DNA of 55,261 bases from Ardenticatenales bacterium (GTDB taxonomy: Bacteria; Chloroflexota; Anaerolineae; Epilineales; Epilineaceae). Below the pieces are notes generated by a model, which made no database searches, was not told the DNA's origin, and was given only the letters and a program-made list of their open reading frames with translations. Within the stretch, counting starts at the first letter, position 1. Each line of letters opens with the position of its first letter. Positions 25,559-36,964 of the stretch are shown piece after piece. Location: NCBI GenBank assembly GCA_020853525.1, contig JADYYS010000005.1:1-55261 (forward strand). Reading direction: 5' to 3'. A program made the translations under genes and the position numbers.

Positions 25559-26653
25559 TCAGACGTTGAATCGCACGTGGAGGATGTCCCCGTCGGCCAC
25601 CACGTAGTTGCGGCCCTCCATGCGGTGCTTGCCGGCCTGGCGGGCGGCGTTCATTCCGCCGAGCGCCACGAGGTCGTCGTAGCTGACGACTTCGGCCCGG
25701 ATGAAGCCTCGCGCCAAGTCGGTATGGATCGTGCCCGCCGCTTCGAGAGCCGTGGCACCGATCGGGATCGTCCAGGCGCGCACCTCATCCTCGCCGACCG
25801 TGAAGAACGAGTGCAGCCCGAGGAGGCGGTAGCACGTTGCCAGGATCCGGGCTGCGCTCGTCTCGCCCACGCCGTATTCCGCCATGAACAGCGCCCGGTC
25901 GTCCGGATCGAGCTGGGCAATCTCCATCTCGATCCGGCCGCGGATGCCGACGACCGCGCTCTTGCGGTGGTCATAGGCCGGCAGCGCCGCGCCGGTGCCC
26001 GGCGGGGTGTCGCCGGTGTTCACGACGATGACGACCGGCTTGAGGGTCAGCAGCTGGAAGCCGCGGATGGGCAACAGCGTGGCCTCGTCGAGGTCGAGGT
26101 CGCGCGCCGGGATCGCGTCCTGCAAGCCGGCGTGCACGGTCTCCAACACGGCCTGCTCCGCCTCGTGCGCCTCGCGCTCGACCGGGCGGATCGGTCGGCG
26201 GAGCGTGTCGCGGATCTTCTCCAGCCGCTTCTCGACGATGACGAGGTCGCTCAGCAGCAGCTCGTTGTCCAGCATGGCGATGTCGCGCGCCGGGTCGACG
26301 CTGCCCTCGAGGTGCGGCACATCGGGGTCGTCGAACGCCCGCACGACGTGCAGCAGGGCATCGTTCAATGCTACGGTGTTCAGCAGTTCGCCGCTGAGCC
26401 CGCCCTCGCCCATGCCCTTCTGCAGGCCGCCGATATCGGCAAACGCCACGCGCGCCCGCGTCACCTTGCGCGGCTTGAACATCGCCGCGAGCACGTCGAC
26501 CCGCGGGTCGGGGACGTCGACGATGGCCCGCTGGATCGTGAAGCGCGTGCCGCCGCCGGCGGCATCGGGCACGGCGCCGGTCAGCGCGCCGAACAACGTC
26601 GTCTTCGAGCTCATCGGCAAGCCGATCACGCCGAACTGCATCACCTCAGCCAT
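25559..26653 (-). CDS. YchF/Obg-family P-loop protein with divergent G motifs
   Basis: 364 residues, usual length for YchF. The P-loop is GLPMSSKTTLFGAL where canonical YchF has GLPNVGKSTLFNAL, so Gly of GKS is Ser and the rest is shifted. The G3-like motif is FADIGGLQKGMGEGGLSG (canonical DIAGLVKGASxGEGLGN). The G4 position reads VVNTGD. The C-terminal half keeps the TGS-like end: AWTIPIGATALEAAGTIHTDLARGFIRAEVVSYDDL ... GRNYVVADGDILHVRFNV, the DUF933 signature of YchF. It is thus a YchF relative that may bind nucleotide differently. ATG at 26653; the second Met (residue 5) is an alternative. A promoter lies 90 bases upstream. Confidence 0.88.
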   Translation of the reverse strand: MAEVMQFGVIGLPMSSKTTLFGALTGAVPDAAGGGTRFTIQRAIVDVPDPRVDVLAAMFKPRKVTRARVAFADIGGLQKGMGEGGLSGELLNTVALNDALLHVVRAFDDPDVPHLEGSVDPARDIAMLDNELLLSDLVIVEKRLEKIRDTLRRPIRPVEREAHEAEQAVLETVHAGLQDAIPARDLDLDEATLLPIRGFQLLTLKPVVIVVNTGDTPPGTGAALPAYDHRKSAVVGIRGRIEMEIAQLDPDDRALFMAEYGVGETSAARILATCYRLLGLHSFFTVGEDEVRAWTIPIGATALEAAGTIHTDLARGFIRAEVVSYDDLVALGGMNAARQAGKHRMEGRNYVVADGDILHVRFNV

Positions 26654-26742
26654 GGCGGGAGTCTCCGGTGCGGTGCGTCGAGCAGGCGGCCGGCGGATGG
26701 ATCGTTCCGCGGCACGTCGACGCCTTCGCTCGTGGGAGGGCG

Positions 26743-26771
26743 ATGGTACGGTGCGCGCCCGGTGACGCCAA
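26743..26771 (-). promoter_or_regulatory. Predicted promoter for the YchF-like gene
   Basis: Minus strand TTGGCG (26771-26766), 17-base spacer, TACCAT (26748-26743). The predicted leader is about 83 nt. Confidence 0.65.
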
Positions 26772-26806
26772 CTTTGGGCGGGTTGCGCCCAAGGACGGGA
26801 TGCCGG

Positions 26807-26835
26807 TCTGCAGGGGTGCCGGTCTTTGGTATACT
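26807..26835 (+). promoter_or_regulatory. Predicted promoter for the kynureninase gene
   Basis: TCTGCA (26807-26812), 17-base spacer, TATACT (26830-26835). The -10 is excellent, the -35 partial. Predicted start about 26842, 67 nt before the TTG start codon. Confidence 0.55.
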
Positions 26836-26908
26836 GCCGCCCGATCAACGGCAACGGGTCGAACGATGGATCGAAGCGCACGACCGGTGCAGACGCTGGG
26901 GGCGGATC

Positions 26909-28150
26909 TTGGGGACGGAGTCAGCGGGCGCGAACGGCGAGGCCGCGAAAGGGAACGATCCGTCGACGGACGACCCGCTGCTCGCGTGGCGCGGCCGCTT
27001 CCCGATCCTCGGCACCTCGAACTACATGATCAGCAACTCGCTCGGTGCCGTGCCGGCGGCGGCCGGCGATGCGCTGGGCGCGTACTACGCGCTCTGGGCG
27101 ACCCGCGGCGTGCAGTCGTGGCAGGACGCCTGGTGGACGCTCAGTGCGGACTTGGGCAATGTCGTCGCACCGCTGATCGGCGCCGCGCCGGGCGACGTCG
27201 TGTTCCAGCCGTGCGTTACGCTGGCCCATGCGATCGTCCTGTCCGCTCTCGACCTCCGGCGCCGCCCGCGAATCGTCACGGATGCGATGCACTTCCCGTC
27301 CATCCTCTACCTTCTCGACGGCCTGCAGGCGGACGGCGTGGAGATCGTCCGCGTGGACAGCGACGACGGCGTCTCCGTTGACGCCGAGCGGATCGCCGCC
27401 GCGATGGATGACCGTACGGCGGCCGTTTGCCTGTCGCACGTCCTCTTTCGCAGCGCCTATATCCATGACCTTACGCCGGTAACCACGGCGGCGCGGGCGT
27501 GCGGGGCGCTCACGATCATCGACGGGTATCAGGCCGTCGGCGTGATTCCGGTCGACGTCGGCCCGCTGGACGTCGACGTCTACATCGGCGGCGTCCTGAA
27601 GTGGCTGTGCGGCGGTCCGGGCGGCGCGTTTCTCTGGGTCCGGCCGGAGCTGCAATCCGAGCTGCGCCCGCGCATCACCGGCTGGATGGCGCACCGCCAG
27701 CCGTTCGACTTCGCGCCGACGCTCGACCGCCGCGACGACATCTGGCGCTTCCTGACCGGCACGCCGAACATCTCGGCGCTGTATGCCGCCCGGCCGGGGC
27801 TCGAGATCATCGGCGCGATCGGCAGTGGACCGATCCGCGCCAAGTCCATGCGCCAGACCGCCCGCCTGCTCGACCTCGCCGATGCCGCCGGCCTCCGGTG
27901 CACGACCCCGCGCGACCCGGCGCGCCGCGGCGGCACCGTGGCGTTCGACGTGCCGAACGGCTACGCCGTCTCGCAGGCGCTGAAGGCACGCGGCATCCTG
28001 TGCGATTTCCGGCCCCAGGCGGGGATCCGCCTCTCGCCGCACTTCTACACCCGGGATGACGAACTCGATGCGGCCGTCCAGGCGATCGTCGACATCCAGG
28101 CCACCGCGGAGTGGCGACCGTTCGCCCGGTCGCGCGACACCGTCACGTGA
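26909..28150 (+). CDS. kynU: Kynureninase
   Basis: 413 residues, a PLP fold-type I enzyme that splits L-kynurenine to anthranilate and alanine. Kynureninase landmarks appear in order: NYMISNSLGAVP (family GNSLGxxP), SWQDAWWTLSADLG, CLSHVLFRSAYIHDL, the PLP lysine K231 in GGVLKWLCGGPGGAFLWV, GWMAHRQPFDF, GTPNISALYA, and the C-terminal RRGGTVAFDVPNGYAVSQAL with DFRPQAGIRLSPHFY. No ATG exists between the promoter and residue 40. The only in-frame start is TTG at 26909, with a G-rich SD-like stretch before it. The formamidase-like gene follows after 67 bases, supporting a role in tryptophan breakdown. Confidence 0.92.
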   Translation: MGTESAGANGEAAKGNDPSTDDPLLAWRGRFPILGTSNYMISNSLGAVPAAAGDALGAYYALWATRGVQSWQDAWWTLSADLGNVVAPLIGAAPGDVVFQPCVTLAHAIVLSALDLRRRPRIVTDAMHFPSILYLLDGLQADGVEIVRVDSDDGVSVDAERIAAAMDDRTAAVCLSHVLFRSAYIHDLTPVTTAARACGALTIIDGYQAVGVIPVDVGPLDVDVYIGGVLKWLCGGPGGAFLWVRPELQSELRPRITGWMAHRQPFDFAPTLDRRDDIWRFLTGTPNISALYAARPGLEIIGAIGSGPIRAKSMRQTARLLDLADAAGLRCTTPRDPARRGGTVAFDVPNGYAVSQALKARGILCDFRPQAGIRLSPHFYTRDDELDAAVQAIVDIQATAEWRPFARSRDTVT

Positions 28151-28217
28151 ACGCCGTGCGGCCCGTGACCGCCACAGCGCTCCGGTGCGATCCGCAGCCG
28201 CCGAAGCGCGCAGCCCG

Positions 28218-28865
28218 ATGAGCGACTGGATCGACATCAGCCTGCCGATGGGTCCCGACAGCATCGCCTGGGCGGGTATTTCGCCGCCCCGGCTGATCCG
28301 ACTGGCCGACATCGAACACGGCGACAGCGTGAACGTCGGCGTCTGGACCGCCTGCCTCCACACGGCCACCCACGCCGACGCGCCGAGCCACGTTCGGGCG
28401 GAGGGCGCGACGATCGAGAACGTCCCGCTCGACGCGTACCTCGGTCCGGCTCGCCTCGTCCGCCTCCGCCGGGCAGCGTCGATCGACCTGACGGGGCTCG
28501 TCGCGGCCGGACTGGATCCAGACGGCCCGTGGCCCGAACGGCTGCTCGTGTCCACCGGCCACGCCTACGACGGCGTCCACTGGCCGACCCGCGTGCCGCA
28601 CGTCGCCGCCGACGCAGCCGCCGCGTGTGTCGCGCACGGCGTCCGGCTGCTCGGCGTCGACGTCCCGTCCGTCGATCCGCTGGACAGCCGGGCGCTGCCG
28701 GCCCACCACGCCCTGTTCGGTGCCGGCATCGCCATCCTGGAGAACCTGCGGCTGGCCGAGCTTGCGCCCGGCGCGTACTGGCTGGCCGCCGTGCCGCTTG
28801 CGATCGTCGGCGGCGACGCATCGCCGGTGCGGGCCGTCGTCCGTCGGCTGGCCGATGGGACTTGA
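28218..28865 (+). CDS. kynB: Cyclase-family hydrolase, probable kynurenine formamidase
   Basis: 215 residues. It carries the metal-binding HxxxHxDxxxH of the cyclase/KynB family as His48, His52, Asp54 and His58 (CLHTATHADAPSHV). ISLPMGPD at the start and GVDVPSVDPLDSRALPAHHALF later also match KynB. It would hydrolyse N-formylkynurenine to kynurenine and formate, the step between the dioxygenase and kynureninase genes on either side of it. ATG at 28218. It lies downstream of kynU in the same direction and ends 9 bases from the convergent dioxygenase gene. Family assignment is firm; substrate rests on context. Confidence 0.9.
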   Translation: MSDWIDISLPMGPDSIAWAGISPPRLIRLADIEHGDSVNVGVWTACLHTATHADAPSHVRAEGATIENVPLDAYLGPARLVRLRRAASIDLTGLVAAGLDPDGPWPERLLVSTGHAYDGVHWPTRVPHVAADAAAACVAHGVRLLGVDVPSVDPLDSRALPAHHALFGAGIAILENLRLAELAPGAYWLAAVPLAIVGGDASPVRAVVRRLADGT

Positions 28866-28874
28866 GGACAACGC

Positions 28875-30200
28875 TCAGCCGATCGTGTTCTCCACGCCGG
28901 CGCGTGCCGCTGCGCCGCCGAGGCCGCTCGTCCACAGGGCCGGGAACGCCCGCCGGTAGAGCGCGATCACGAGGAAGTCCACGCCGGACGTGCCGCCCGT
29001 GCCGGGCACGCGACCGATCTGCGCGGCCGCCGTTGCGACGTGCGCCACGTGGAATCCGAAGAGCATCGCCTCGAGTCCGGCGAACCGGGACAGCGTGCCG
29101 CGATCGGCGGACGGCAGCGTTGCGAAGGCAGCGTCGGCCACCGCGGTCGGCGGAGGATGCGGGACGTCGGTGGACGGCGGCTCCGGCGCGTCGGGCGGCC
29201 AGACGTCGATCCGCACGCCGGCGGCGGCGAGCAGTGCCGTCGAAGCTTGATCGACCCAGCCCCCACGGTACGCCATTGCCAGCAGGTCGGGCAGGGATGC
29301 CGCGTGTCCGGGGTGCAGTCGGGGCAGGGTTTGCCCGCCGAAGCGCGCCGCGAAGCGGTCGGCCATGCTGTGTCCGGCGTCGCGATCGGCGCGGCGCCGA
29401 TTCAGATCGTCGCGGACCGCAGTCTCGTGGTAGCCGGCCAGGTGGGTCGTCCAATGGTCGAGGCCGTGATCCGCATAGCCGAGCTGCATCGCGACGGCGC
29501 GGAATGTGGGCGACTGGAGGCCACTCGGCCCCTCGCGGAGAACACGCCCGGTCGCCGGGTCGTACTCCGAGGCGTAGTACGGCCGAAAGCCTGCGGTGAA
29601 GGCGTCGACCGGCATCCGTTGGGGATCCTGGAAGGCGGCCATCAGGGCGTTGACGGCGCGAAAGCCGTCGGCCAGCGTCGGGTAGGCCGCCGCGAAGGCC
29701 GCGTCGAACGCGTCGTCCGAGTGGCCGTCGAGCACCGTGTCGAGCACCGGGATGAGCGCATCGAGGCGCTCCTCGACGGCGCGGTGCATCCGGATGAAGC
29801 GTGCTTCGGACGCGAGCGGGGTGAACGTGCGGAGGGGCGCCGGGGGCAGCGGGTTGTGCCGGATGTAGAGCGGATAGTTCAGAATCGGCTGGATGCCGAG
29901 CGCCGCCGCCACCGCTGCGCAGGCCGCATGAAGCGCCCGGGCGGCTTGCGCATCCGGCAGCGAACCGTGACGGCGGGCGAACGCCTCGACCATGAGGACG
30001 TCGAGCGCGAGCGCGCGCCGGTGCTCGATCGGGCGGTCGGCAGCGGAGACGGCGTCGAGCGAGGGTACGGCGAGGATGTCGGCGGCCAGTTGCGCCAGCA
30101 CGGCCTCCGCTCCGCGCGCGGCCGCCTCGTGGCGCGCGGGCAGCGAGAGGCTGAGGGCGGCCCAGGCGGCCCGTACGTCCGGCGAAGCGTGCGCAATCAC
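28875..30200 (-). CDS. Heme dioxygenase of the TDO/IDO/PrnB superfamily (DUF1864-like)
   Basis: 441 residues from the GTG at 30200 (458 if a TTG at 30251 is used). The C-terminal region contains HVATAAAQIGRVPGTGGTSG followed by VDFLVIALYRRAFPALW. In tryptophan 2,3-dioxygenase the proximal heme His lies 13 residues before a GTGGSSG motif, which is followed by FL..AL...FFPELW. Here His387 is exactly 13 residues before GTGGTSG and the FPALW ending is kept. The remaining 380 residues do not look like canonical KynA (about 280-300 aa) and resemble the longer PrnB/DUF1864 group. Next to kynB and kynU, the likely reaction is tryptophan to N-formylkynurenine. A different indole substrate is possible. 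Confidence 0.8.
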   Translation of the reverse strand: MIAHASPDVRAAWAALSLSLPARHEAAARGAEAVLAQLAADILAVPSLDAVSAADRPIEHRRALALDVLMVEAFARRHGSLPDAQAARALHAACAAVAAALGIQPILNYPLYIRHNPLPPAPLRTFTPLASEARFIRMHRAVEERLDALIPVLDTVLDGHSDDAFDAAFAAAYPTLADGFRAVNALMAAFQDPQRMPVDAFTAGFRPYYASEYDPATGRVLREGPSGLQSPTFRAVAMQLGYADHGLDHWTTHLAGYHETAVRDDLNRRRADRDAGHSMADRFAARFGGQTLPRLHPGHAASLPDLLAMAYRGGWVDQASTALLAAAGVRIDVWPPDAPEPPSTDVPHPPPTAVADAAFATLPSADRGTLSRFAGLEAMLFGFHVAHVATAAAQIGRVPGTGGTSGVDFLVIALYRRAFPALWTSGLGGAAARAGVENTIG

Positions 30201-30207
30201 GGCGGCG

Positions 30208-30261
30208 ATGGTATCACATCGGCCGAAACGTCGGGCGGGTGCATAGCTCAATGACTATACG
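30208..30261. promoter_or_regulatory. Divergent promoter region, dioxygenase and NHL genes
   Basis: On the minus strand TACCAT (30213-30208) puts initiation at about 30201, at the GTG start of the dioxygenase; CCCGAC lies 16 bases upstream. A second minus-strand -10, TATAGT (30259-30254), shares its TATA with a plus-strand TATACG (30256-30261) that would serve the NHL-repeat gene. The -35 elements are poor for the last two. Confidence 0.4.
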
Positions 30262-30301
30262 AAGTCGACGTCGGGCCGGGACCGAGCCGGCGGAGGGGCG
30301 C

Positions 30302-32593
30302 ATGTGCGGTGGAAGGGCGATGGTGCGACGCAGCGGTGCCGCGGGACCGCGAAGCGGAGACGCGGCGCAGAGCGGCGGCCGCCGTGCGTCCGTGTGGTCG
30401 GTGCGCGCGGCCGTCGTCAGCATGCTCTTCCTCGCCGCGACGATGTGGGTACCGGCCCGGTCGGTCCGGGCGCAGGCTGCGGACGTCGGACTGCCGCTCC
30501 ACCCCGCCTGGCCGATCGACCCGAGCGACCCGCCGCCGGGCCTGCACGAGCCGATCGGCGTCGCCGTCGATGCGGGCGGTCGGACGTTCGTGGCGGACAC
30601 GGGCAACGCACGCTTGCTGGCGTTCGACGACGACGGACGGCTCGTGACGACGTGGGGACGGCACGGCGAGGGCAACGGGCGTTTCGGTCGGCTGAGGGAC
30701 ATCGCATGGTCGACGACCGGGCTGTGGGTCGTCGACGACGGTCTGGAGAAGATCGAGCGGTTCGATTCTGACGGGCGGTTCCAGATGGCGGTCCGGTGCG
30801 CCGACATCGGCGTCCTCGCTCCCGCGGGGATCGGGGCCGGTGCCGACGGCTCGGTGTGGGTGGCCGACGGGCTCGGCGATCGCGTGGTCGAGGTGACGCG
30901 CAGCGGCGCGGTGCGCCGGCGTTGGGGGCGAAGCGGCGACGCGGCCGGCGCGCTGTCCGGCCCGGTCGACGTGGCGTTGGCCGCGGACGGCAGCGTCGTC
31001 GTGCTCGAGGCGTACCGCTGGCAGCGGTTTACGGCGGACGGCGCATGGCTTCAGAGCCGCGGCATGGCGGGCCGTCAACTCGGCCAGTTCCAGCACGCAT
31101 GGTCCGTGGCGATCGAGCCGGGCGGCGGGTGGGTGATCAGCGACCGGGCGGTTCACCGGCTGACGCGCGTGGATGCCCGCGGCGTGGCGCAGGCGTTCGT
31201 CGGCGGTCCGGGCGACGATCTCGGTCGCTTACTCGACCCGCGCGGGGTGGCGGTGGATGGAGCGGGCACGGTCGTCGTCGCCGATCTCGGCAACGGGCGC
31301 GTGCAGCGGCTTGTCGACGGCCTGCCGGGCGACGTCCTCGGGCACAGCGCCTTCGACGGGCCGCACTTGGCCTATCCGCTCGGCGTGGCGGCCGACGGCG
31401 CGAATCTCCTCGTGGCGGACACCGGTCGATCGCGGGTCGTGCGTCTCGACGCCGCGGGTCGCTGGCTGGGCGTGCTGGCCGCCGGCGGGCGACTGCCCGG
31501 CCTGCTGAGCGCCCCCGACGGCATCGCCCGCGCGGACGACGGCAGCGTGTTCGTGGCCGACACGCTGCGCCGCCGGCTGCTTCACTTCGCCTCCGACGGG
31601 CGATACCTGAGCGGGATCGACATCTGGGGCCCGAGCGCCCGACCCGTCCGCGTCGGCCTCTTGCCGTTGGCGGACGGGCTGCTGCTGGCGGACAAGAAGG
31701 CGCACGCGCTGATTCGGTACGATGCCGCCGGGGACGCCACCTCCTCTTGGCCGACGGACAACACAGCCGGCCTGCTCGGTCATCCCTCCGGCCTGACGCG
31801 GCTGGTCGACGGTCGGCTGGCGATCGCCGACTGGTTCCAGCGAGTCGTCCATGTGCTCGGCGCGGACGGAACGTACGACGCACGCTGGCCTGCCGCCGAT
31901 GCACCGGAGGAGGCGCAGCTGTCCGACCCGACGGACGTGGCGGCGTGGTCGGACGGCTCGCTGCTCGTGGCCGATGCCGGTCACCGGCGGCTGGCGGCGT
32001 TCGCGGCCGACGGGACGCTTCGGGCTTCGTTCGGGCGCGGCGGCGCCGGGTGGGACGGCTTCGGTCCGAGCGGGCCGAGCGCGGTGGCGGTCGTCGGCGA
32101 CGCGCTCGTGGCCGTCGATCGCGACGGGCACCGGCTGCTCGTGTTCCGCGAATCGCCGACGACGGGCTGGCGGGTGAGCGACTTCCCGGACGGCTGGCTG
32201 GGCGGTGCGCCCCTCCGGGTCCGCACGTTGTCCGACACCCTCGCGCTGACGCTGACGCTGCCTTCGACGGCGCTACGGGGTGACGACGGGTCGGCGAGTA
32301 CCCGCGCCGAGGGACGGGTGGCGCTTCCGAGAGGGACGGCGGTGCGCTTGACGGTGCGTGTGCCGGGCGGTGTCCGCATGTGGCATGATGGGTCGGTCGT
32401 CGTCGACGCGTGGACAAGCGAGGCGGCAGAGCACACCGTCGTGCGAACCGCCGTGGGCGGCACGGCGACGATCGAGTGGGAGGTCCGGTGGCCCCGCGCT
32501 GCGCCGGGCGAAACGGCCCGGGCGGCAGTCCTCACGATCCGTCCGATCGATCTGCCGTCGGCGGTCTACCTTCCGACGGCCCTTCAACCGTAG
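30302..32593 (+). CDS. Secreted NHL-repeat beta-propeller protein with YLP tail
   Basis: 763 residues. A signal-like hydrophobic segment occurs near residue 35-55 (VVSMLFLAATMWVPARSVRA, cleavage near AQA). The body is repeated NHL blades of about 45-50 residues with 'P.GvAvda.g..fVADtgn.Rl..fd.dGr' signatures, for example PIGVAVDAGGRTFVADTGNARLLAFDDDG in outline, LLVADTGRSRVVRLDAAG and SVFVADTLRRRLLHFASDG. There are around ten to twelve blades, enough for two propellers. A beta-rich C-terminal domain of about 150 residues ends LPSAVYLPTALQP. ATG at 30302 follows GGAGGGG; a second ATG at 30320 is possible. Likely an extracellular binding or scaffold protein, not an obvious part of tryptophan metabolism. 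Confidence 0.87.
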   Translation: MCGGRAMVRRSGAAGPRSGDAAQSGGRRASVWSVRAAVVSMLFLAATMWVPARSVRAQAADVGLPLHPAWPIDPSDPPPGLHEPIGVAVDAGGRTFVADTGNARLLAFDDDGRLVTTWGRHGEGNGRFGRLRDIAWSTTGLWVVDDGLEKIERFDSDGRFQMAVRCADIGVLAPAGIGAGADGSVWVADGLGDRVVEVTRSGAVRRRWGRSGDAAGALSGPVDVALAADGSVVVLEAYRWQRFTADGAWLQSRGMAGRQLGQFQHAWSVAIEPGGGWVISDRAVHRLTRVDARGVAQAFVGGPGDDLGRLLDPRGVAVDGAGTVVVADLGNGRVQRLVDGLPGDVLGHSAFDGPHLAYPLGVAADGANLLVADTGRSRVVRLDAAGRWLGVLAAGGRLPGLLSAPDGIARADDGSVFVADTLRRRLLHFASDGRYLSGIDIWGPSARPVRVGLLPLADGLLLADKKAHALIRYDAAGDATSSWPTDNTAGLLGHPSGLTRLVDGRLAIADWFQRVVHVLGADGTYDARWPAADAPEEAQLSDPTDVAAWSDGSLLVADAGHRRLAAFAADGTLRASFGRGGAGWDGFGPSGPSAVAVVGDALVAVDRDGHRLLVFRESPTTGWRVSDFPDGWLGGAPLRVRTLSDTLALTLTLPSTALRGDDGSASTRAEGRVALPRGTAVRLTVRVPGGVRMWHDGSVVVDAWTSEAAEHTVVRTAVGGTATIEWEVRWPRAAPGETARAAVLTIRPIDLPSAVYLPTALQP

Positions 32594-32673
32594 CGCAACC
32601 ACGGCACTCCTATCGCCGTACCCGTCGGCAGACGGGCGTGCGGCATCCGATCGCGAGCCTTGCGAGGTGGACC

Positions 32674-33519
32674 TTGGCACACGACAGACCTTCCGGCACG
32701 TCCTTCGGCTTCGGCCCGGCGGAAGGCGACCTCGACTTCGCCTTTCACGTGGCGGACAACGGCGTCGCCACGCTCCGACTCGACCGGCCGGCCGTACTGA
32801 ACGCGATCACGCTGCGCATCTATGCGCAGTTGCGGGACCTGTTCGCCGCGCTGCGCTTCGACGATCGCGTCAAAGCCGTGGTCCTGACCGGCAGCGGCGA
32901 TGCGTTCTGCTCCGGCGGCGACGTGCATGAGATCATCGGCGCGCTGCTGGACGCCGACGTGAAGACGCATCTCGAGTTCTGCCGGATGACCGGCGACACC
33001 GTGCGGAACATGTGCCTGCTCGACAAGCCGATCGTCGCCGCCGTGAACGGCATGGCCGCGGGCGCCGGCGCCGTGCTGGCGCTGGCGTCCGACCTGCGCG
33101 TCGTCTCGACGACGGCACGGTTCGCCTTCCTGTTCAGCAAAGTCGGGTTGACGGGCGCGGACATGGGCGCGGCATTCCTCCTGCCGCGGATCGTCGGCAC
33201 CGGACGGGCGGCCGAGCTGCTCCTCTTCGGCGACACGATCGACGCCGCCACCGCCGAGCGGTACGGCCTCGCCAACCGCATCGTCGCCCCCGACGACGTG
33301 TTGCCGACGGCCACCGCATGGGCCGAGCGCCTCGCCGCCGGTCCGACGATGGCCCTCGGCATGACGAAGCGGATGCTTCTCAACGAGGCGAACATGGACA
33401 TCGGGAGCGCGCTCGAAGCCGAGGCACAGGCGCAGGCGCTCCTCATGATGGCCGACGACCACCGCGCGTTCTACGAAGCGTTCAAGGCGAAGCATCGCCC
33501 GACCTTCACCGGGCGCTAG
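32674..33519 (+). CDS. Enoyl-CoA hydratase/isomerase family protein
   Basis: 281 residues from a TTG at 32674, with GAGGTGG just upstream. Crotonase fold: LRLDRPAVLNAITLRIYAQL, VLTGSGDAFCSGGDVHEI (oxyanion-hole strand), KPIVAAVNGMAAGAGAVLALASDLRV (second oxyanion loop), then GLTGADMGAAFLLPRIVGTGRAAELLLFGDTI. The usual first catalytic Glu position is occupied in the SKVGLTGADMGA segment by a pattern typical of one enoyl-CoA-hydratase subgroup, so hydratase versus isomerase or lyase activity is uncertain. It begins 80 bases after the NHL gene and 99 bases before the RidA gene. Context (acyl-CoA dehydrogenase, aryl-CoA ligase) points to CoA-thioester degradation. Confidence 0.88.
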   Translation: MAHDRPSGTSFGFGPAEGDLDFAFHVADNGVATLRLDRPAVLNAITLRIYAQLRDLFAALRFDDRVKAVVLTGSGDAFCSGGDVHEIIGALLDADVKTHLEFCRMTGDTVRNMCLLDKPIVAAVNGMAAGAGAVLALASDLRVVSTTARFAFLFSKVGLTGADMGAAFLLPRIVGTGRAAELLLFGDTIDAATAERYGLANRIVAPDDVLPTATAWAERLAAGPTMALGMTKRMLLNEANMDIGSALEAEAQAQALLMMADDHRAFYEAFKAKHRPTFTGR

Positions 33520-33618: not shown

Positions 33619-34155
33619 GTGCCGCCAAGCGAACCGATCGAGCGCATCAACCCCGCCGGGCTGGCCCCGCCGATCGGCTTCAGCCACGGCGTGGCGACAC
33701 GCGGCGGCCGGATCGTCTGGCTGGCCGGGCAGAACGGGACGGACGCGGAGGGCCGGATCGCGGCGGTCGGCGACTTGGTCGCGCAGGTCGATCGCGCGCT
33801 GGCGAACATCGTGGCGGTCGTCGTGGCGGCCGGCGGCTCGGCAGCCGACATCGTCAAGCTCCACTTCTACGTCCACGACCTGCCGGCGTACCGCGCCGCG
33901 CGCGCCGCGCTCGGCGACGTCTGGCGCCGGCACTTCGGACGGCGGTACCCGGCGATGATGCTTCTCGGGGTGACCGGGTTCTTCGACGAAGAGGCCCTCG
34001 TCGAGATCGACGGGTTCGCCGTCGTCGCCGATGCGGGGTACGGCTCGGCGGCAGACGGGTCCGAGGACGTGGTCGGGGACACGGACGGGACTGCGGCCGA
34101 CGAAGGTGGCACGGCGTCGTCGCGCGGGCATACGGGGGGGCCGGCGGCGCCATGA
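33619..34155 (+). CDS. RidA (YjgF/YER057c/UK114) family protein
   Basis: 178 residues from a GTG with AGGA eight bases upstream. Residues 1-140 form the trimeric RidA fold: SHGVATRGGRIVWLAGQNGTDAEG, VDRALANIVAVVVAAGGSAADIVKLHFYVHD, RRYPAMMLLGVTGFFDEEALVEIDGFAV. In archetypal RidA the imine-binding Arg sits in a P-A-R-S/T motif; here the same place reads P-A-M-M, so this is not a standard 2-aminoacrylate deaminase. Other Rid subfamilies act in aromatic-amine catabolism (2-aminomuconate deaminase), which would suit the context. A disordered acidic tail of about 38 residues is unusual. The stop overlaps the next ATG (ATGA). Confidence 0.88.
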   Translation: MPPSEPIERINPAGLAPPIGFSHGVATRGGRIVWLAGQNGTDAEGRIAAVGDLVAQVDRALANIVAVVVAAGGSAADIVKLHFYVHDLPAYRAARAALGDVWRRHFGRRYPAMMLLGVTGFFDEEALVEIDGFAVVADAGYGSAADGSEDVVGDTDGTAADEGGTASSRGHTGGPAAP

Positions 34156-35354
34156 ACTTCTCCCCCACCGCCGAACAGCTCCGCTGGCGCGACGTTGCCG
34201 CGGCGTTCGCCCGCGACCGCGTCGCGCCGATCGCGCGGCAGGCGGACCGCGATGCGCGCTTTCCGATCGAGCTCGTCCGTGAGATGGGGCGGCTCGGCCT
34301 GCTGGCCGGGCCGGTCGATCCCTCGCTCGGCGGCTCGGCGATGGACTACGTGGCGTTCGCGCTCGTCTACGAAGAGCTAGGTTATGTCGACTCGTCGCTG
34401 CGCGGCTTCCTGGCGGTGCACGGCGGTCTCGTCACGCTCTGTCTGCGGGATCACGGCAGCTTCGAACAGCAGCGCCGATGGATCCCGCAGCTCGCCCGGG
34501 GCGAGGCGATCGGGTGCTACTGCCTGACCGAAGAGGAAGCCGGTTCGGATGCCGGCGCGCTGCGGGCGACGGCACGTCGAACGGACGACGGGTTCGTGTT
34601 GGACGGTCGCAAGATCTGGATCACGAACGGCCGGATCGCGGACGTCGGCATCGTCTTCGCGCGCGATCCCGAGCTGCCGGCGGCCAAACCGCATCACCAG
34701 ATCTGCGCCTTCGTCGTGCCGATGGACACGCCCGGAATTCGACGCAGCGCGCTGCCGTGGCACGAGCTCGGCCACCGTTCCGCCGACCATGCCATCGTCG
34801 AGTTCGATGGCTGCCTCGTACCGGCGTCCGCGCTCCTCGGCGAGCCGGGCCGCGGCTTCCGGGTGGCGATGGGGGCGCTGGACCACGGCCGGCTGGGCGT
34901 GGCGGCCGGCGCGGTCGGCGCCGGTCGGGCATGCCTCGACGCGTGCATCGACTTCGCGCGCCGTCGGCGCGCGTTCGGGCAACGGATCGGCGACTTCGGA
35001 ATGATCCAGAGCGTGCTGGCCGACATGCACGCCGACATCTCGGCCGCGGCGCTGCTCGTCTACCGGGCCGCCGCGCTGAAGGACGAGGGCGCGCCCTCCA
35101 CGCGGGCCACGGCCACCGCCAAGCTCTTCGCCACCGAGGCCGCGTTGCGCGCCGCCGACCAGGCGGTCCTCGTGCACGGCGGCCGCGGCTACGGTGACGA
35201 CTACGCCGTCGAACGGCACTGGCGCGACGTCAAGGGCCTGCAGATCTACGAGGGCACGAGCCACATCCAGCGGCTGATCATCGCCCGCGATCTTCTCGGC
35301 ACGGACGACGGCGCGCCCGCCGTTCGCCCCCCCACGACTGCGGAGGCCCCATGA
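34152..35354 (+). CDS. Acyl-CoA dehydrogenase
   Basis: 400 residues, a FAD-dependent alpha,beta-dehydrogenase of acyl-CoA esters. N-terminal helices (SPTAEQLRWRDVAAAFARDRV), the FAD/substrate-contact stretch CYCLTEEEAGSDAGALRATA, WITNGRIADV, the helix RRRAFGQRIGDFGMIQ and the C-terminal GRGYGDDYAVERHWRDVK are all present. The catalytic base is the Glu of IYEGTSHIQRL, as in short/medium-chain and glutaryl-CoA dehydrogenases. Coupled on both sides by four-base ATGA overlaps with the RidA and ligase genes, so the three proteins are made together. Confidence 0.93.
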   Translation: MNFSPTAEQLRWRDVAAAFARDRVAPIARQADRDARFPIELVREMGRLGLLAGPVDPSLGGSAMDYVAFALVYEELGYVDSSLRGFLAVHGGLVTLCLRDHGSFEQQRRWIPQLARGEAIGCYCLTEEEAGSDAGALRATARRTDDGFVLDGRKIWITNGRIADVGIVFARDPELPAAKPHHQICAFVVPMDTPGIRRSALPWHELGHRSADHAIVEFDGCLVPASALLGEPGRGFRVAMGALDHGRLGVAAGAVGAGRACLDACIDFARRRRAFGQRIGDFGMIQSVLADMHADISAAALLVYRAAALKDEGAPSTRATATAKLFATEAALRAADQAVLVHGGRGYGDDYAVERHWRDVKGLQIYEGTSHIQRLIIARDLLGTDDGAPAVRPPTTAEAP

Positions 35355-36964
35355 ACGCGCTGCGCGCCGACGACCTGCCCCTCGCCTACAATGCCGTCGA
35401 CATCCTGGAGCGCAACCTCCCGCTTCGGGCGGACAAGACGGCGCTCCACAGCGACACGCGCAGCATGTCGTTCGGCGAGGTGTCCGCCGAGGTGAACCAG
35501 GTGACGAACGGCCTGCGTGCGCTTGGCGTGCGCTTCGGTGAGACGGTGGCGATCCTGTGCCTCGACACGCCCGAATTCGTCAGCGCCTTCTTTGGGACGA
35601 TGAAGACCGGGGCCGTCGCCGCCAGCTTCAACACCCTGCTCAAGCCCGCGGACTACCGCTACGCCCTGGACGACTGCCGGGCGCGCGTGCTGTTCGTCGA
35701 CGCGCGACTGCTCGGGTCGATTGCGCCCATCCGGAACGAGGTGCGCTGGCTGGAGCACGTGATCGTCGTGGGCGGGGACGGCGCGGGCGACGGGGTGAGC
35801 GACGGGGTGGGCAGCGGGGTGGCCGGCGGGCTCGACTACGGCGCGTTCGTCGCCCAGCAGCCGGCCGAGGCGGACGTCACCCCGACGCACCGTGACGACT
35901 TCTGCTGCCTGAACTACTCCAGCGGCACGACCGGCGAGGCCAAGGGCATCCTGCACGCCCACAAGGACCTGCCGCTGACGGCCCACAACTGGGGGTTGAT
36001 GACGCTCGGGCTGCGCGAGGACGACCGGACGTTCGCCGCGGCCAAGCTCTTCTTCACGTTCGGCACGGGCGGCAACCTCGTGTTCCCATGGTACGTCGGC
36101 GCGAGCGTGACCCTGTTCGCCGGCCCGCCACGGGATCCGCGCGCGCTGCTCGGCGTCATCGCGCGCCATCGCCCGACGGTCTTCTACAATGCGCCGACCG
36201 GCTACGGCATGCTCCTCAGCCTCGAGGACCTCACGACGGCGAACGACCTGTCCAGCCTGCGGCTGTGCGTCTCCGCCGGCGAGGCGCTGCCGGCGCCGAT
36301 CTGGCATGCCTGGAAGGCCCGCACCGGCCTTGGCATCGTCGACGGCATCGGCTCGACGGAGAACTACCACATCTTCGTCTCGAACCGGCCCGACGACATC
36401 CGGCCCGGCTCGAGCGGCAAGCCGGTGCCGGGCTACGAGGTGCGAATCGTCGACGAGGTCGGCGACGGCGTCCCGGACGGGGAGATCGGCAACCTGCTGG
36501 TGCGTGGAGAGACGGCGGCCCTGTTCTATCTGCACCAGAGCGCGAAGAGCCGGACGACGTTCTTGGGCGAGTGGCTCTTCACCGGGGACAAGTACCGCCG
36601 TGACGGCGACGGCTACTACTGGCACGAGGGCCGCAGCGACGACATGCTGAAGGTCGGCGGGATCTGGGTTTCGCCCGTCGAGGTCGAGAGCGCGCTGCTG
36701 TCGCACGATGCCGTGCTCGAGGTCGCGGTGGTCGGCGTCCCGGACGCGAACGACCTCGTGAAGCCGAAGGCCTACGTCGTCGTGCACGCGCACGCGGCGG
36801 CGGACGACGACCTCGCGGCCGCGCTGATCGCGTATTGCCGCGACGTGATCGCCGAGTACAAGCGGCCGCGCTGGATCGTGTTCGTCGACGAACTGCCGAA
36901 GACGGCCACGGGCAAGATCCAGCGGTTCCGGCTGCGGGATCGCGAGCCGGAGATCGACGCCTGA
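35351..36964 (+). CDS. Benzoate-CoA ligase family (aryl-CoA) ligase
   Basis: 537 residues, an ANL-superfamily AMP-forming ligase. The P-loop-like A3 motif is YSSGTTGEAKGILHAHKDL, A5 is GIGSTENYHIFVSN, A7/A8 are FTGDKYRRDGDGYYWHEGRSDDMLKVGGIWVSP, and the A10 lysine is in PKTATGKIQRF. The N-terminus (YNAVDILERNL, LRALGVRFGETVAILC) and A5 context are those of the benzoate-CoA ligase group, which includes 2-aminobenzoate, 3- and 4-hydroxybenzoate ligases. With kynureninase nearby making anthranilate, 2-aminobenzoate is an attractive substrate, but this is inference. A Gly/Asp/Val low-complexity insert (about 140-155) is unusual. Coupled to the dehydrogenase by ATGA. Confidence 0.9.
   Translation: MNALRADDLPLAYNAVDILERNLPLRADKTALHSDTRSMSFGEVSAEVNQVTNGLRALGVRFGETVAILCLDTPEFVSAFFGTMKTGAVAASFNTLLKPADYRYALDDCRARVLFVDARLLGSIAPIRNEVRWLEHVIVVGGDGAGDGVSDGVGSGVAGGLDYGAFVAQQPAEADVTPTHRDDFCCLNYSSGTTGEAKGILHAHKDLPLTAHNWGLMTLGLREDDRTFAAAKLFFTFGTGGNLVFPWYVGASVTLFAGPPRDPRALLGVIARHRPTVFYNAPTGYGMLLSLEDLTTANDLSSLRLCVSAGEALPAPIWHAWKARTGLGIVDGIGSTENYHIFVSNRPDDIRPGSSGKPVPGYEVRIVDEVGDGVPDGEIGNLLVRGETAALFYLHQSAKSRTTFLGEWLFTGDKYRRDGDGYYWHEGRSDDMLKVGGIWVSPVEVESALLSHDAVLEVAVVGVPDANDLVKPKAYVVVHAHAAADDDLAAALIAYCRDVIAEYKRPRWIVFVDELPKTATGKIQRFRLRDREPEIDA

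Follow-up and report, generated by a model that had tools for sequence, protein, structure and literature searches.

A candidate fourth lineage of tryptophan dioxygenase beside kynurenine-route genes in the Chloroflexota

The first step of tryptophan breakdown along the kynurenine route is catalysed by tryptophan 2,3-dioxygenase (TDO) or indoleamine 2,3-dioxygenase (IDO). A 55,261-nucleotide stretch of DNA from an Ardenticatenales bacterium of the Chloroflexota (GenBank assembly GCA_020853525.1, contig JADYYS010000005.1, positions 1 to 55,261; hereafter the window) raises the question of which protein takes this step when the genes for the following two, kynB and kynU, face a gene for a 441-residue protein. 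This protein, here called X (positions 28875–30200, minus strand), is a divergent member of the tryptophan-dioxygenase superfamily, as judged from weak Pfam and NCBIfam matches to IDO and TDO, profile comparison, a residue table and an AlphaFold2 model. We put at roughly 80% the probability that X represents a fourth deep lineage of the TDO/IDO/PrnB superfamily that acts as a tryptophan 2,3-dioxygenase, with its heme, activity and substrate predicted from sequence.

Predicted pocket, profiles and fold of X

The C-terminal end of X carries, in order, H387, twelve residues, the motif G400-TGGTSG and then F419-PALW423. The first-pass annotation, made from the sequence of the window, had recognized TDO heme-ligand geometry at this end; the His, GTGGTSG and FPALW are all present, although the spacing is 12 residues rather than 13. 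The pattern H-x12-GTGGT occurs a single time in the six-frame translation of the whole window and, because two orthologs of X retain all of these residues, the motif is more than a chance resemblance. Residues were compared in a joint alignment of 3 X, 9 IDO, 26 TDO and 5 PrnB sequences, with XcTDO numbering taken from the chain positions of 2nw7/3e08 (all codons below are on the minus strand). The predicted proximal heme ligand H387 (29040–29042), which opens H-x12-GTGGTSG, shares its alignment column with the heme His in TDO (26/26), IDO (9/9) and PrnB (5/5). The predicted distal His, H139 (29784–29786; the XcTDO His55 position), is present in all three X, all nine IDO and all 26 TDO sequences and in none of the five PrnB proteins, whereas R206 (29583–29585; the XcTDO Arg117 position), predicted to hold the substrate carboxylate, is invariant in all four groups. 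Within the loop G400-T-G-G-T404 (28989–29003), T401 is the predicted binder of the substrate amino group, the role played by Thr342 of GTGGS in human TDO (PMC11904535). Across the alignment all X sequences have F135, H139, R206, S226-G227, H387 and GTGGT, which TDO and these prokaryotic IDOs also keep almost without exception. The TDO catalytic set (distal His, FR Arg, proximal His and GTGG[ST]) is kept in X as H139, R206, H387 and G400-T404, and the 26 TDOs match it apart from one Gly-to-Ala change and, in 17 sequences, a Ser where X has the last Thr.

The known X set consists of three sequences, all from draft assemblies, two of which are 81-84% complete. Searched singly against Pfam, X of the window matches the IDO family PF01231 over residues 36-211 (E 0.0014; 17.9 bits versus a cut-off of 26) and the TDO family PF03301 over 384-424 (E 0.004; 17.0 bits versus 34.9); in NCBIfam it matches the TDO family TIGR03036 over 377-424 (E 9.3e-7; 28.5 bits versus 390.7). 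Full-length profile comparison of the three orthologs (hhalign) gives E 5e-17 for TDO, 4e-15 for IDO and 6.6e-7 for PrnB. The IDO and TDO profiles compared directly reach only E 8e-13, so X is closer to IDO and to TDO than these two are to each other. The comparison was repeated on two parts of X, divided at residue 241. The front part matches IDO at 6.8e-16, PrnB at 2.4e-7 and TDO at 4.6e-6, and the back part matches TDO at 1e-12, IDO at 0.03 and PrnB at 0.4. X is therefore IDO-like in front, where residues 1-241 align to IDO columns 36-271 as an IDO-type N-terminal domain (probability 98.6), and TDO-like at the heme-ligand end. Drawn from few sequences, this profile evidence is no proof of descent. 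The mean identity of X is 24% to TDO, 21% to IDO and 18% to PrnB.

In a tree of 219 core columns, with nine IDOs sampled and TDO set as the outgroup by choice, four clades stand on long stems: TDO (100/99), IDO (99/96), PrnB (100/100) and X (99/99). X falls outside the other three clades; long branches meet in this tree, and it does not fix how X, IDO and PrnB branch relative to one another. The tree and the split profiles together bear on the most serious alternative, namely that X is a fast-evolving IDO still acting on tryptophan, with a TDO-like C-terminus that is ancestral, convergent or due to chance. The strong IDO match of the front part speaks for such an origin, haloarchaeal IDOs likewise lie near kynU (one of them with an AMP-dependent ligase), and in the tree X groups with IDO and PrnB apart from TDO, though under the chosen outgroup. 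We nevertheless regard it as unlikely, given that the back part of X fits TDO far better than IDO, that X keeps R234, which is Arg in 24/26 TDOs where 8/9 IDOs have Pro, and that the well-supported IDO clade excludes X, which forms its own.

The first-pass annotation had proposed structure prediction and superposition as a check, and an AlphaFold2 model built from the three sequences (pLDDT 69.5, pTM 0.71) is consistent with a heme-dioxygenase fold, in agreement with the profiles. TDO and IDO head the Foldseek ranking at a probability of 1.00, although the E-value is only 1.6e-3. The VIA comparison gives Z scores of 14-16: 15.9 for SO4414 (310 residues aligned, root-mean-square deviation 6.6), tied with 15.8 for TDO 2nox (234 aligned, 4.1), and 14.7 for human IDO1 (278 aligned, 6.0). 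As the arrangement of helices can by itself bring unrelated bundles to Z ~13, the fold backs the sequence evidence rather than standing by itself; PrnB does not appear in the 50-entry VIA listing, which carries no weight on its own.

Published work describes IDO and TDO as products of independent evolution, without a common ancestor (PMC4191572), and X thus bears on an open question: with an IDO-like front, a TDO-like end and a full catalytic set, it makes the separate origin of the two enzymes testable. That X, as a fourth heme dioxygenase lineage joining IDO-type and TDO-type parts, documents their common descent is a tentative proposal, to which we give somewhat less than even odds.

From its pocket residues X should be a dioxygenase of an indole that is an alpha-amino acid. 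The superfamily also includes enzymes with other substrates and with monooxygenase outcomes (PMC11904535, PMC11791213), and IadI, annotated as a kynurenine formamidase, works in auxin degradation and not in the kynurenine pathway (PMC12633357). X might accordingly be a heme oxygenase that acts on some other indole compound, for instance on indole-3-acetate or a substituted tryptophan, or that forms 2-oxindole as MarE does, with anthranilate formed by a side route. In the TDO-like MarE the indole nitrogen is bound by the distal His and the carboxylate by a lid-helix Arg, just as in TDO, and SLGGR replaces GTGGS in this monooxygenase (PMC11904535). X, however, has GTGGT and P-S-G loops of the TDO type where MarE has SLGGR and DATG, its carboxylate Arg and amino-binding Thr positions suit an alpha-amino acid, and kynU, which clusters with X in the window, requires the amino-acid side chain of kynurenine, all of which makes a different indole improbable.

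Least credible, and very improbable in our estimate, is that X belongs to the PrnB/DUF1864 group and was recruited from secondary metabolism to catabolism: a real local likeness stands (the short Y..RNP....R.FT loop and the RPyf.P motif, next to weak matches to PF08933 in 2/3 X-family members with a best E of 4.2e-4, to PrnB structure 2v7i at E 0.0096 over 85-210, and by hhalign to the N-terminal part), but the group membership claimed by the first-pass annotation falls, as X of the window has no PF08933 match in the Pfam search, the IDO and TDO profiles fit far better, the PrnB relatives have Leu or Val in place of H139 (5/5) and lack GTGGT (0/5), PrnB forms a separate clade, and the C-terminal part of X shows no similarity to it.

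Genomic context and its weight

The layout that the first-pass annotation described is borne out. The ORFs (open reading frames) of kynU, kynB and X are all intact; kynU and kynB lie head-to-tail with a gap of 67 bp, and X is tail-to-tail (convergent) with the pair, ~10 bp from kynB, which puts it outside their transcript. X starts at a GTG at 30200 or at an alternative in-frame TTG at 30251. The divergent kynU-like kynureninase (26909–28150, plus strand, start codon uncertain) matches PF22580 KYNU_C at 2.2e-18 and TIGR01814 with 125 bits, and has the pyridoxal-phosphate lysine motif KWLCGGPG. The kynB-like kynurenine formamidase of the cyclase family (28218–28865, plus strand) matches the arylformamidase family TIGR03035 with 181 bits (E 2.8e-53) and has the metal motif HTATHAD.

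A normal kynA elsewhere in the genome, with another substrate for X, would by the account of the first-pass annotation speak against a role of X in the first step. No TDO (PF03301) was found in the window's genome, which is 96.85% complete, and neither was a second IDO by family search nor a PrnB protein; the PrnB search exceeded its cut-off in four other genomes. As the sole TDO/IDO/PrnB-type protein found in the genome, lying beside kynB and kynU, X most likely carries out the opening reaction of the kynurenine route, the role that the earlier reading had given it from context. The kynU of the window is the only TIGR01814 (kynureninase) match in its genome.

Two further genomes of the same taxonomic family encode X orthologs: G426 (Anaerolineae metagenome-assembled genome, contig JAJCYU010000016.1; 43% identity) and G452 (metagenome-assembled genome UCB3, contig QEVT01000056.1; 49-51%). 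In G426 X is again tail-to-tail with kynB, which is 52% identical to the window kynB. In G452 X adjoins genes for an enoyl-CoA hydratase, a RidA-family protein, an acyl-CoA dehydrogenase and a benzoate-CoA-ligase-family protein, in the order of the window and 67-72% identical. All three genomes with X carry kynU and kynB. No further relatives of X turned up in 400 genomes of the phylum and 298 of the class, and none outside the family in a single-protein scan that covered 84,980 species with one genome apiece, as far as pattern-seeded scanning reaches; a search with the three-sequence X alignment recovered only G426 and G452. Apart from the orthologs, the phylum and class scans returned canonical TDOs, one IDO, one PrnB and weak or false matches. 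Two candidate relatives were rejected as false, one being an ORF antisense to S-adenosylmethionine synthetase and the other a Kelch-like protein.

As a control, kynU lies near canonical TDO in 7/19 TDO loci of the same phylum (up to ~10 kb on each side). One such locus (L099) holds a canonical TDO together with kynU, enoyl-CoA hydratase and RidA genes, from which X appears to fill the slot of a canonical TDO and with it a kynurenine-route gap in some Chloroflexota genomes.

Several observations weigh against this assignment. X is below every curated family cut-off tested in Pfam and NCBIfam, and for that reason annotation pipelines would probably miss it. Its model is moderate: the pLDDT drops below 50 in residues 103-128, 199-215, 218-228 and 402-405, stretches that take in some of the presumed pocket lining. 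Both kynU and kynB are themselves divergent members of their families, as they stay under the curated equivalog cut-offs (125 versus 246 bits and 181 versus 223 bits). Since X is convergent with kynU-kynB, gene order gives no support for co-transcription. Finally, four other genomes of the same order (78-90% complete) carry kynB-like genes, three of them also kynU-like genes, and in these four no TDO was found in searches made with X and no IDO by family search, so kynU and kynB alone are no proof of a tryptophan dioxygenase. This pattern may reflect incomplete assemblies, kynurenine salvage or yet another dioxygenase. The genomic context is accordingly supportive of the role of X in the first step, and not proof of it.

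Some further observations concern the surroundings of these genes. The window kynU has 35-38% identity with kynureninase-like genes from the same order, and G426 and G452 each carry a standard, over-cut-off kynU elsewhere in the genome. A minus-strand ORF at 25559-26881 of the window is the apparent counterpart of the G426 YchF ATPase gene beside the kynurenine genes, although in G426, unlike the window, kynU is missing between the two. At 30239-32593 the window encodes a secreted-looking NHL-repeat protein, divergent from X across a gap of <40 bp. PrnB proteins over the PF08933 cut-off occur at five loci (L076-L080) in four genomes of one family of the same phylum; genome G272 has two PrnB proteins, one of them close to a gene that resembles an AMP-dependent ligase (24% identity).

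The proposed route from tryptophan

We infer the heme binding, substrate, reaction and flux of the following route. By homology, H387 would ligate ferrous heme and H139 would hydrogen-bond the indole nitrogen while distal-side O2 adds across C2-C3 to yield N-formylkynurenine. KynB would then take off formate, and KynU would split kynurenine into anthranilate and alanine. Anthranilate could pass onward by way of 2-aminobenzoyl-CoA through a nearby CoA ligase, a distant PRK08255-type monooxygenase/reductase, an acyl-CoA dehydrogenase, a hydratase and RidA.

Four of these genes lie on the plus strand of the window and have counterparts in the G452 cluster: an enoyl-CoA hydratase of the PRK08258 family (32650–33519; NF006107 363.8 bits, cut-off 330; its 72% identical counterpart adjoins X), a RidA-family protein (33619–34155; PF01042 1.8e-17; 70% identical), an acyl-CoA dehydrogenase (34155–35354; PF00441 1.5e-50; 70% identical) and a benzoate-CoA-ligase-family protein, probably a 2-aminobenzoate-CoA ligase (35351–36964; TIGR02262 553 bits, cut-off 375; 67% identical). 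A 2-aminobenzoyl-CoA-monooxygenase-type protein over the cut-off of NF006101, a family that we take to include the 2-aminobenzoyl-CoA enzyme, is encoded by the window's genome (contig 39) and by G452. Because the genome encodes this protein, it is plausible that the route leads tryptophan into CoA-linked degradation, with a gene set that extends beyond anthranilate to 2-aminobenzoyl-CoA. The known aerobic 2-aminobenzoyl-CoA route likewise proceeds by a ligase, a monooxygenase/reductase and then beta-oxidation (PMC4539516).

X beside known systems

A literature search found no paper on bacterial kynurenine routes in the Chloroflexota or on a third tryptophan dioxygenase. Among known systems, PrnB/DUF1864 (PF08933) has in common with X the superfamily fold, the heme His, the short Y..RNP loop and the RPf/y motif, but differs in the absence of the distal His and GTGGT and in its clade. 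SO4414 of Shewanella oneidensis (1zee/2nwb), a putative 2,3-dioxygenase, is the longest good structural match to X, although it is only 12% identical and was not recovered by the sequence searches of this analysis. The prokaryotic IDOs (PF01231), such as the Halomicrococcus IDO that adjoins kynU and is annotated as hypothetical, are like X in the N-terminal domain, the P-[IV]-L-[SN]-Y and RPY motifs, the distal His (in these prokaryotic IDOs) and the kynU neighbourhood; X differs in its TDO-type C-terminus and in lacking the longer loop that follows the NW motif in IDO. In five haloarchaeal plasmid loci IDO stands next to kynU with an alpha/beta hydrolase (a possible formamidase), an AMP-binding ligase or trpB, and a tryptophan dioxygenase other than TDO beside kynU is thus not new in itself. 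TDO (KynA; PF03301/TIGR03036) shares with X the C-terminal H-x12-GTGGTSGVxFL...FPxLW, the distal His, the FR carboxylate Arg, the S-G-x-Q-S...R helix and a position in the genome next to kynU and CoA-linked anthranilate genes. X, at 441 residues, is longer than TDO (roughly 240-300), with ~100 extra N-terminal residues and additional sequence in the region from about 256 to 360. What is new in X is its separate lineage and its make-up of an IDO-like front joined to a TDO-like end.

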